From Fermentimonas sp. (GTDB lineage: Bacteria; Bacteroidota; Bacteroidia; Bacteroidales; Dysgonomonadaceae), in the NCBI GenBank assembly GCA_015478775.1, contig JADMKP010000012.1:124001-188000 (forward strand): a DNA stretch of 64,000 nucleotides, read 5' to 3'. The notes beneath the pieces are model-generated. The model searched no databases. It saw nothing but the letters and a program-made list of their open reading frames with translations, and was not told where the DNA came from. Each line of letters starts with the position of its first letter. Position 1 is the first letter of the stretch. Made by a program: the position numbers and the translations under genes. Positions 42,320 through 44,672 of this stretch are shown here, piece by piece.

Positions 42320-42337
42320 GTGTCGCTTGAGTGACAC
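42320..42337 (+). promoter_or_regulatory. Dyad operator, site 1, before the P-type ATPase gene
   Basis: GTGTCGCTTGAGTGACAC is an 18-bp imperfect palindrome. Its core TGTCG-CTTGAG-TGACA (42321-42336) has the 5-6-5 geometry of CRP/FNR-family sites. It begins 37 bp before the -7 box, the same distance as site 2 at 44264. Its centre would lie near -40 to -42 from the transcription start, as for a class II activator. Confidence 0.7.
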
Positions 42338-42357
42338 ATAAGCTATTTCACTATCCT

Positions 42358-42365
42358 TACCTTTG
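42358..42365 (+). promoter_or_regulatory. -7 box for the P-type ATPase gene
   Basis: TACCTTTG matches TAnnTTTG and lies 21 bp before the ATG at 42387. There is no TTTG at the usual -33 position; the dyad at 42320-42337 occupies that side, consistent with activation. Confidence 0.6.
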
Positions 42366-42386
42366 TCAATATAAAATTAGAACTAT

Positions 42387-44237
42387 ATGCAAAGATTTAT
42401 ATTTAGAAATAAAAACAGGATTACGCTTTTAAGTGCGATTTTAATTGTCACAGCCTACATCAGCAAATGGGCTGCAGGAAATAATGAGGTGTTTACTTTG
42501 GCCTTAATCATTGCATCAATTATAGGAGCAATACCAATTGCACTGCAGGCATATCAGGCATTAAGGGTAAAGGTGGTAAGTATTGATGTACTGGTCACAA
42601 TAGCAGTTATAGGCGCATTTTTGATTCAAAATTATGAAGAGTCGGCAATTGTAACTTTCCTCTTTTTATTTGGTGCTTATCTCGAACAACGCACATTAAA
42701 CAAAACTCGTTCTGCAATTAAAGAGCTAACTGAAATGGCCCCCGAGAGTGCATTTAAACAAATGCCAAATGGAGAGTTCGAAATGGTTGATGTGGATGAT
42801 GTTGATGAGGGCGATATGCTGCAAGTAAGAACCGGTGCCAAAGTGCCTGTAGATGGTACTGTGGTTTTTGGTGAAGGCTATATCAATGAGGCTAGTATCA
42901 CCGGAGAGTCTCTTCCTGTTCAAAAGCAAAAGGATTCTAAGGTGTTTGCTGGAACTATACTCGAGAATGGAACAATTCACATTTTGACGGATAAAGTGGG
43001 CGAGGATACAACCTTTGGAAGAATTATTGAACTGGTGGAGGAGGCACAAGACTCGAAGTCGGAGGCCGAGCGATTTATAGATAGATTCTCAAAATATTAT
43101 ACTCCTGCGGTGCTTCTTTTGGCATTTGTAGTGTGGGTTTTTACTCAGAATGTTGAGCTTGCAATAACAATATTGGTGCTTGGGTGCCCTGGTGCATTGG
43201 TTATTGGTGTGCCTGTATCAAACGTGGCGGGTATTGGCAATGGTGCTAAAAATGGTGTATTGCTAAAAGGTAGCGAGGTTATAACCGATTTTAGCAATGT
43301 ACACACAATTGTATTTGACAAAACCGGTACTCTAACTGTTGGGAATCCATCGGTTTCTGAAACTATTCATTATACCAATAATAGTGATGTGCTTGGTTAT
43401 TTGGCGAGTATAGAGCGTGAATCCGACCATCCTCTTGCAAAAGCAGTTATTAATGAGATAGGGGATAATACTTTTTCTGTTGTTGAAAATACTGAGGTTG
43501 TAAAAGGTGGTGGTATTGTGGCTTATGTAAATGGTAGCAGAATAGCCGTTGGTAACGTAGCTTTAATGGAGAGAGAAAATGTTGAGTTAAGCGATGAGGC
43601 TTTAAAAGATATTAAAAGGTTAGTGAGTGGGGGTAATTCTCTCGTACTAACTTCAATGGATGGCAAGCTGCAGCTCTTGATGGGCGTGCGTGATCAAATT
43701 CGCCCCCGTGTGAAGGAAGACCTATTGAAGCTGAAGAGAATGGGTGTTAAGGAGTTGGTTATGCTTTCGGGCGACAATCAGGGCACCGTTGATGTAGTGA
43801 GTAGTGAGATTGGCATGACAAAAGCTTTTGGAAATATGTTGCCTGAGGATAAATCGGCTTACATTAAAAAGCTAAAGGATGAAGGTAAGATTGTTGCTTT
43901 TGTTGGTGATGGTGTGAACGACAGCCCCTCGCTTGCTCATGCCGATATTGGTATTGCAATGGGTAGCGGCACGGATGTGGCAATTGAAACTTCGGATGTG
44001 GTGTTGATGAACTCAGATTTTAATCACCTCACTCATGCATTGGGATTGGTAAAAGCAACTGCAGGAAATATGAAGCAGAATATTGTAATTGCAGTGGGTG
44101 TAGTACTTATTTTATTTACAGGTTTGCTATTTAGCGAATGGGTTAATATGTCAATTGGCATGCTGGTTCACGAGCTTAGTATACTTGTGGTTATACTCAA
44201 TGGGATGAGATTAACGCGTTTTAAATCAAGAGGATAA
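42387..44237 (+). CDS. Heavy-metal P1B-type ATPase with a CPG motif
   Basis: ATP-driven metal exporter of 616 aa with no N-terminal metal-binding domain. The order is two helical hairpins, the actuator loop with TGESLPV, the metal-site helix LGCPGALVIGVPVS (CPG at residues 267-269), the phosphorylation motif DKTGT (Asp311), the nucleotide-binding ESDHPLAKAV (a variant of the SEHPL site) and VAFVGDGVNDSPSLAHADIG. The last helix carries MLVHELSILVVILNGMRL. The usual CPC, SPC or TPC is replaced by CPG, so the metal class is unclear. The next gene encodes an HMA-domain protein under a matching operator. Confidence 0.92.
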   Translation: MQRFIFRNKNRITLLSAILIVTAYISKWAAGNNEVFTLALIIASIIGAIPIALQAYQALRVKVVSIDVLVTIAVIGAFLIQNYEESAIVTFLFLFGAYLEQRTLNKTRSAIKELTEMAPESAFKQMPNGEFEMVDVDDVDEGDMLQVRTGAKVPVDGTVVFGEGYINEASITGESLPVQKQKDSKVFAGTILENGTIHILTDKVGEDTTFGRIIELVEEAQDSKSEAERFIDRFSKYYTPAVLLLAFVVWVFTQNVELAITILVLGCPGALVIGVPVSNVAGIGNGAKNGVLLKGSEVITDFSNVHTIVFDKTGTLTVGNPSVSETIHYTNNSDVLGYLASIERESDHPLAKAVINEIGDNTFSVVENTEVVKGGGIVAYVNGSRIAVGNVALMERENVELSDEALKDIKRLVSGGNSLVLTSMDGKLQLLMGVRDQIRPRVKEDLLKLKRMGVKELVMLSGDNQGTVDVVSSEIGMTKAFGNMLPEDKSAYIKKLKDEGKIVAFVGDGVNDSPSLAHADIGIAMGSGTDVAIETSDVVLMNSDFNHLTHALGLVKATAGNMKQNIVIAVGVVLILFTGLLFSEWVNMSIGMLVHELSILVVILNGMRLTRFKSRG

Positions 44238-44263
44238 GTTAATAATCTTGAAAACTGACAAGG

Positions 44264-44279
44264 TGTCTCTTAAGTGACA
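44264..44279 (+). promoter_or_regulatory. Dyad operator, site 2, before the HMA gene
   Basis: TGTCT-CTTAAG-TGACA differs from a perfect palindrome at one base and from site 1 (42321-42336) at two. It starts 37 bp upstream of the -7 box at 44301, exactly as site 1 does relative to its own -7 box. Confidence 0.72.
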
Positions 44280-44300
44280 GTTTAAGGTATAGTTTAAGGC

Positions 44301-44308
44301 TATATTTG
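44301..44308 (+). promoter_or_regulatory. -7 box for the HMA gene
   Basis: TATATTTG is a perfect TAnnTTTG match, about 45 bp before the ATG at 44353. It gives the HMA gene its own start in addition to readthrough from the ATPase. Confidence 0.65.
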
Positions 44309-44352: not shown

Positions 44353-44604
44353 ATGAAAACAACAACAAATATGAAAACAGCAACAATACAATTAGAAACT
44401 TTAACGTGCCCATCATGTATACAGAAGATTGAGGGGGCAATGAAAAAATTAGATGGTGTTGATCAGGAAAGTGTAAACGTTATGTTCAACGCAAGTAGAG
44501 TAAAAGTAAATTTTGATGATGAGAAAGTATCAATTGATGAGATTGAGAAGGTTATCACAAGATTAGGCTATGGAGTAGAGAACTCGAAAGTGAAAGCAGC
44601 TTAA
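44353..44604 (+). CDS. HMA-domain metal-binding protein
   Basis: Small cytosolic 83-aa protein with a single heavy-metal-associated ferredoxin-like fold. The metal site is LTCPSCIQKIE (Cys19 and Cys22), followed by DGVDQESVNVMFNASRVKVNFD and a C-terminal RLGYGVENSK. It probably delivers metal to, or senses metal for, the upstream ATPase, which has no HMA domain of its own. An internal Met at residue 7 is another possible start. Confidence 0.88.
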   Translation: MKTTTNMKTATIQLETLTCPSCIQKIEGAMKKLDGVDQESVNVMFNASRVKVNFDDEKVSIDEIEKVITRLGYGVENSKVKAA

Positions 44605-44637: not shown

Positions 44638-44672
44638 AAACTGTTGCTCTTAATTGAGTGACAGTTTTTTTT
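44638..44672 (+). terminator. Terminator after the HMA gene
   Basis: AAACTGTTGCTC (44638-44649) pairs with GAGTGACAGTTT (44656-44667) through 12 pairs including two G-U wobbles. The loop is TTAATT, and a run of T continues to 44672. The 3' arm also resembles half of the dyad operators (AGTGACA). Confidence 0.75.

Follow-up and report, generated by a model that had tools for sequence, protein, structure and literature searches.

It is proposed that two short palindromes (dyads) in a 64,000-nucleotide stretch of Fermentimonas sp. DNA (contig JADMKP010000012.1, positions 124,001 to 188,000; this whole stretch is called the window), one ahead of a P1B-type ATPase gene and the other ahead of a gene for a small HMA-domain protein, are operators of a single CRP/FNR-family regulator, CRP-A, encoded in the same 2.9-Mb genome (G000). 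All of the evidence is sequence comparison. CRP-A is very probably a paralogue of HcpR that would act as a class II activator on the three promoters of a metal regulon; its signal may be nitric oxide (NO) sensed by haem, a metal bound to its His-rich extension, or both. The operator, its spacing, its targets and its co-inheritance with the regulator are shown by comparison of related genomes, in which the promoters of the ATPase, the HMA protein and a DUF6448 protein share the layout TGTCNC-N4-GNGACA, 21 nt and a -7 box (TAnnTTTG), with no -33 element. A group of anaerobic Bacteroidota thereby gains a regulator whose operator, targets and promoter geometry are all defined. The parts found in the window are as follows.

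42321..42336, + strand: operator dyad TGTCGCTTGAGTGACA of the ATPase promoter; dyads stand at equal offset in related ATPase promoters
42358..42365, + strand: -7 box TACCTTTG of the ATPase promoter, 37 bp from the dyad start; same offset genus-wide
42387..44237, + strand: P1B-type ATPase of 616 residues, with CPGALVIG in the presumed transmembrane segment 4 (TM4) and HELS near the C-terminus (TIGR01525 at 542 bits, Pfam, motifs)
44238..44242, + strand: GTTAA element, starting 26 bp upstream of the dyad of the HMA promoter (sequence reading; comparison of 36 promoters)
44264..44279, + strand: operator dyad TGTCTCTTAAGTGACA of the HMA promoter; dyads stand at equal offset before HMA genes in L034, L037 and L041
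44301..44308, + strand: -7 box TATATTTG of the HMA promoter, 37 bp from the dyad start
44353..44604, + strand: HMA-domain protein of 83 residues with an ETLTCPSC motif (PF00403 at 49.1 bits; below the NCBIfam CopZ cut-offs)

Operators and promoters in the window and the genus

Both dyads, both TAnnTTTG boxes and the 37-bp offset lie where the initial annotation of the window had placed them, and its further claim that neither promoter has a normal -33 TTTG is borne out, there being no TTTG 17-22 bp upstream of either box. Six of the eight base pairs are complementary in TGTCGCTTGAGTGACA and seven of eight in TGTCTCTTAAGTGACA, and the window has no other TGTC-N8-GACA site. Resampled 300 times under a first-order Markov model, it gave on average 0.91 counts of this pattern; because a palindromic pattern counts each site on both strands, the true expectation is about 0.5. 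A dyad with a box at the observed offset appeared in none of the 300 resampled windows.

Searches of whole genomes used a composite of dyad, 21 nt and TAnnTTTG, with the reversed pattern as control. G000 contains the strict pattern TGTCNCNNNNGNGACA three times, and the composite with at most one mismatch gives three matches there, all exact; the control gives none in either case. The third site, TGTCACCTGGGTGACA at G000:C7:453553, lies between a DUF6448 gene (G000:C7:452833-453444, or L013:781-1392; PF20046 at 186.6 bits, cut-off 27) and the divergent CRP-A gene (G000:C7:453585-454391). Among 39 genomes of the genus, CRP-A, called at more than 340 bits, is present in 23, and the composite (at most one mismatch) is found in 25, namely in 23/23 genomes with CRP-A and 2/16 without it (G078, and G088 with one mismatch). 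The 39 genomes together hold 42 composite matches versus 3 for the control pattern. The 33 exact composites stand at DUF6448 genes (20), ATPase genes (7), HMA genes (4) and small open reading frames heading an HMA-ATPase operon (2); nine further composites have one mismatch, three of them at DUF6448 promoters (G058, G068 and G081) and six without locus placement. In G057 the composite is at the ATPase, the CRP-A gene begins at the contig end and no DUF6448 promoter was therefore seen. Comparison thus confirms the two predicted dyads as real and common to related bacteria. The search for the dyad at a fixed distance from TAnnTTTG in related genomes is the check that the initial annotation had suggested, and its picture of two promoters under one activator is supported as regards the shared activator and amended as regards the number of promoters, which is three with that of DUF6448.

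With every strict dyad read in both directions there are 71 unique oriented dyads; 34 of them are followed within 114 nt by TAnnTTTG, without exception at position +37, and at that position the DUF6448-facing dyads of L075 and L082 carry a box that differs in one letter. Two of the exact composites precede incomplete genes, a shortened DUF6448 frame in G078 (L130:2554-2873) and an ATPase remnant in G058 (L128:2689-3146), each behind an exact operator and -7 box, which suggests either that the system has been lost there or that the assembly is faulty. Sites of the form TGTCNC-N4-GNGACA at ribosomal-protein genes or inside coding frames (L125, L126, L127, L129, L131 and the TGTC site of L132) were set aside as chance occurrences and are absent from the composite list.

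The target genes are linked to one another and to the regulator. On one public contig from a metagenome-assembled genome (L152), HMA gene, ATPase gene, dyad, CRP-A gene, dyad and DUF6448 gene follow each other consecutively. Within 20 genus loci (L136-L155, public relatives of a linked gene at 63-99% identity), CRP-A is divergent from DUF6448 in 18, of which 17 carry the strict dyad (L155 lacks it); L141 begins after CRP-A and has the dyad, and L148 begins inside DUF6448. An ATPase of at least 73% identity was found in nine genus genomes (one of them partial, G074), all nine with CRP-A, compared with CRP-A in 14 of the 30 genomes that have no such hit (Fisher p 0.004). In 60 loci from outside the genus (L156-L215), DUF6448, HMA and ATPase genes occur together in four (L205, L208, L209 and L212). 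None of these 60 loci has CRP-A adjoining DUF6448 (a weak CRP match, at 35%, lies about 4 kb off in L195), and none has a strict TGTC dyad at DUF6448, a few of them having little upstream DNA; their sole strict TGTC match, in L184, is about 5 kb from DUF6448. Because an AraC-type regulator gene lies close to DUF6448 in 40 of the 60, the family seems to be under a different regulator outside the genus.

A comparable spacing is found before hcp genes, where TGTA-N8-TACA starts 37 bp ahead of TAnnTTTG in 12 of 13 hcp-labelled rows (L237 is the exception). This is a fairer figure than the inflated 20/21 of the full list, which was drawn from 40 loci admitted on hcp or on a box at 37 and takes in only loci with a TGTA-N8-TACA site. 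Bacteroidales hcp promoters with the shared layout are seen in L088, L089, L091-L094, L132, L134, L135, L216, L223 and L240, and TGTA-N8-TACA at 37 bp from TAnnTTTG is perhaps the general layout of HcpR sites. Because both kinds of promoter show the 37-bp offset, the CRP-A promoters keep the HcpR layout and alter the operator letters.

The word GTTAA was located relative to the dyad in 36 CRP-A promoters, which had been picked for a box-like word at +37 and so test the place of GTTAA and the -33 slot, not the offset. It stands at -26 in 23 of them, at -27 in one, at -25 in one, at -16 in two and at -15 in one, the rest being without it. After removal of similar promoters, GTTAA is at -26 in 15 of 27, with the reversed word TTAAC there once, and TTTG fills the -33 slot in 0/27. 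The ATPase promoter of the window has no GTTAA at 26 bp before its dyad. Of the 13 hcp rows, six have the word at -15 and one has it at -25. Roughly one turn of the helix separates -26 from -15, a spacing that would fit contact with the RNA polymerase alpha subunit. A fixed offset of 37 between dyad and box and an absence of TTTG from the -33 slot are what a class II promoter, with its activator site centred near -41.5, would be expected to show, and this putative class II position is reckoned from the -7 box.

CRP-A as a relative of HcpR

CRP-A has the two domains of the CRP/FNR family, PF00027 (33.3 bits) and PF13545 (47 bits), both over cut-off, and is the only one of three CRP/FNR genes in G000 with a strict site beside it. 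A second one (L031:1-2070, on G000:C8) is by reading divergent from nrfH- and nrfA-like genes and has no strict dyad nearby. The closest solved structures to CRP-A are 1o5l (E 6.8e-26) and 9day (E 6.3e-24). In a tree of 63 CRP/FNR proteins, the 23 distinct CRP-A sequences (22 from genus genomes and that of L152) form one clade with support 100/100, which is joined to the HcpR rows of the family at 100/100 (33 rows); the branching order inside the joint group is less certain (92/70). HcpR copies adjoin hcp. All 23 CRP-A sequences have 17-57 residues before a conserved CPL motif, with 4-12 His among them, and Gln at the position of CRP Glu181, while all 10 HcpR paralogues have a short N-terminus with 0-1 His and Pro at that position. 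The rows were first sorted by residue 181; the tree and the His-rich extension are independent checks and return the same grouping. CRP-A is best read as a paralogue of HcpR that arose by duplication and whose operator has changed.

HcpR is described as a haem/NO sensor with Met68 as haem ligand and with Pro89 and Pro100 in the haem pocket (PMC12750200), and in Bacteroides thetaiotaomicron HcpR reportedly binds haem and is required for hcp transcription (PMC13370916). The equivalents of Met68 (Met111 in CRP-A), Pro89, Pro100, R180 and R185, mapped by eye via the structure-match alignment, are invariant in 23/23 CRP-A sequences, and that of Met145 is Thr or Ser. Pro181 has been tied to GTAACnnnnGTTAC, and the HcpR of Porphyromonas gingivalis (PG1053) has Gln181 with a different motif, unlike GTAAC (PMC1274295). 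It resembles CRP-A in its Gln181 and differs from it in controlling hcp. The chain 9day of the PDB, which aligns with CRP-A and has the same recognition helix R-Q-S-L-A-R-S, is taken to be P. gingivalis HcpR on the strength of a RAEMVGPSG stretch that matches the Met68 primers of PMC12750200.

As compared with HcpR and HcpR2, the hcp activators of Bacteroides, Porphyromonas and Thermotogales, CRP-A shares the clade, Met68, a 16-bp dyad with the 37-bp offset and the divergent gene arrangement. It differs in its His-rich extension, in Gln181 for Pro and in TGTCNC for TGTAAC; its gene faces DUF6448, its targets are metal and DUF6448 genes rather than hcp, and it occurs where hcp was not found. 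It is likewise distinct from HcpR2, for which GTAACnnnnGTTAC goes with Pro181, since GTCNCnnnnGNGAC goes with Gln181 in 23/23 CRP-A sequences. HcpR and CRP-A form a natural duplicate pair in which a specificity residue and an operator base differ and the promoter layout is the same. A literature search of limited scope found no account of a His-rich Crp/Fnr regulator of metal-translocating genes in Proteiniphilum.

Mechanism, signal and competing readings

We propose that CRP-A, bound near -41.5, recruits RNA polymerase and replaces the -33 contact, as class II activators do, and that the operator shift from TGTAAC to TGTCNC, together with the Pro-to-Gln change at 181, prevents cross-talk with HcpR. 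The signal would be nitrosative stress, perceived through haem on the Met68 equivalent, and the His-rich extension perhaps tunes CRP-A by metal. Once active, CRP-A would raise the supply of a metal pump, of the pump's chaperone and of a secreted protein with His and Cys, and together these could clear metal freed by NO, for example zinc. NO frees protein-bound zinc, and in Salmonella zinc exporters give protection against NO (PMC6094482); if the NO input is true, transcription would be the level at which nitrosative stress is tied to metal export, a connection that otherwise depends on the zinc release in Salmonella. The proposal of a CRP/FNR-family activator at the class II position, made in the initial annotation, is strongly supported, as the dyad tracks CRP-A in the genus, lies in CRP-A's own divergent promoter region and has the HcpR-type offset. 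The suggestion made with it, of perhaps a redox or nitrosative-stress sensor rather than a metal repressor, fits the kinship with HcpR; given the His-rich extension, there may also be a metal input.

Several observations weigh against this proposal. The equivalent of His149 is Gln in 23/23 CRP-A sequences, although His149 is neither conserved nor essential according to PMC12750200. Conservation of Met68 is not peculiar to CRP-A, since an equivalent was seen in 26 of a set of 30 order-level loci that includes the CRP-A of the window's genome, and the Pro/Gln correlation reflects a single origin in the CRP-A clade. Thirteen of the order-level loci have no palindrome that passes the rule. Fifteen rows combine a passing palindrome with Pro181; it starts with TGTA in 10 of these and not in five (L228, L236, L239, L244 and L245), and for L236 and L244 the best upstream palindrome starts with TGTC. 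G000 itself has neither hcp (at E <= 1e-50) nor an HcpR orthologue. Hcp was not found in four of the nine genomes tested, G000, G066, G074 (73% complete) and G081 (86% complete), and because no hcp was found there CRP-A is not a stand-in for HcpR in those genomes. Lastly, 14 genus genomes hold CRP-A and no ATPase of this kind, so that the regulon centres on DUF6448 and the pump is an addition to it rather than a core member.

The most serious rival, which we consider unlikely on the whole, keeps operator and regulator the same and makes CRP-A a metal sensor that works through its His-rich extension, the haem function of HcpR having been lost. It draws on the contrast between the 4-12 His of that extension in 23/23 CRP-A and the 0-1 His of 10/10 HcpR, on the nature of the targets (the metal pump, the HMA protein and a secreted product that has His-Cys-Asp at its N-terminus and His in its tail) and on FlpA, a CRP/FNR regulator of lactic acid bacteria that is counted under metal homeostasis (PMC3616900). 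For the Lactococcus lactis pair FlpA/FlpB a link to zinc is indicated by the title of a reference in PMC6196286; both belong to another phylum and are likened to CRP-A by description only. Against this rival, the Met68, Pro89 and Pro100 equivalents have remained invariant, the extension varies in length and sequence, with only 17 residues in L087, and NorB (three loci: L172, L181 and L193), hemerythrin (four) and Hcp (one) are encoded within 3 kb of DUF6448 in the 60 extra-genus loci. The His-rich extension and the metal-handling targets make a metal signal, acting by itself or beside NO, a serious competitor. A combined version can be entertained tentatively and is on the doubtful side: CRP-A would be a two-input activator, with a haem/NO core and metal sensed by the His extension, that was freed as an HcpR duplicate by Pro181Gln and the change from TGTA to TGTC and couples nitrosative stress to export by the CPG pump and HMA protein and to a secreted DUF6448 protein with a new nickel- or copper-hook N-terminus.

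That the dyads belong to some other regulator (Rrf2, AraC-type, ArsR or another CRP/FNR protein), CRP-A being merely a neighbour, is quite improbable. An AraC-type gene does lie near DUF6448 in 40 of the 60 extra-genus loci, and an Rrf2 gene precedes DUF6448 in L061; but composites and CRP-A go together from one genome to the next, also where the ATPase locus is on another contig, none is found at DUF6448 in those 60 loci (a few with little upstream DNA), the offset equals that of HcpR-type sites, and the remaining two CRP/FNR genes of G000 have no strict site nearby. As for two short palindromes alike by chance, or left from one duplicated promoter, with no regulatory meaning, the expected frequency of a lone TGTC-N8-GACA, about one in every second window, allows for the thought, which is already refuted by the comparative data and can be given almost no weight: the 21-nt spacing is fixed, the composite recurs in 25 of 39 genomes with 42 matches against 3, and the flanks diverge where dyad, spacing and box persist.

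Products of the target genes

The DUF6448 family gains a regulatory and genomic setting from this work; the literature search found no paper naming it, and fold searches returned nothing that clearly matched it. In 49/49 aligned DUF6448 proteins, picked from 80 loci (L136-L215), Ala directly precedes HCDS[YF]DGP and position -3 is Ala, Val, Thr or Ser, a conservation that is partly built in, as AHCDS[YF]DG was one of the two scan patterns. This would be a signal-peptidase site of the AxA type, with the mature protein starting at His-Cys-Asp. The DUF6448 proteins of the genus that were listed for comparison finish in a short His-containing tail. The predicted start may be likened to the N-terminus HCDLPCG of nickel superoxide dismutase (PMC5722923), as a resemblance only: the ligands His1 and Cys2 of that enzyme are present in DUF6448, and its Cys6 has no counterpart. 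Genes related to NO are found within 3 kb of DUF6448 in 15 of the 60 extra-genus loci and beyond 5 kb in 4 of the 60, a contrast that is biased and serves as a hint only, the seeds having been chosen from the same neighbourhoods and including broad ones (cupin, COX1-like); in this count Rrf2 genes occur in the far zone only (two loci). The AraC-type genes near DUF6448 in these loci encode a regulator with a hydrophobic N-terminal part and lie on the same strand (L158, L160-L162 and L164 among them).

P1B-4 ATPases carry the subgroup signature SPC together with HEG-S/T. The window ATPase has CPG in the presumed TM4 in place of SPC. Like P1B-4 enzymes it has HE-x-S close to its C-terminal end, a motif that reads HEGST in L044, and it differs from them in CPGALVI[GS] and in its HMA protein partner. 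CPGALVI[GS] is present in 12 of 12 ATPases of this group examined and HE[LAI]S in 10 of the 12, the printed tails of L042 and L208 not reaching the place. This P1B group, with CPGALVI[GS] replacing CPC or SPC, adjoins HMA and/or DUF6448 genes in the window and in L042, L043, L152, L205, L208, L209 and L212. It looks rare across the phylum, being found in 2 of 296 genomes, G000 included, in a survey at E <= 1e-125 with at most four candidates scored per genome.

The 83-residue protein is of the HMA, or CopZ-like, type by PF00403 over cut-off and by its CPSC motif. In L053 (10617-10916) and L054 (11270-11566) the operator-linked HMA and ATPase operon is headed by a gene for a protein of 98-99 residues with no Pfam family above cut-off. 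Downstream of the HMA gene of the window, at about 44638-44672, a hairpin followed by a T run is read as a terminator. A loose-scan dyad match at 44648 was rejected as an operator, as it lies by reading in this terminator-like hairpin, whose arm TGACAGTT resembles half a dyad and so gives a false third match in loose scans. Comparable hairpins were read in L035, L036 and L041.

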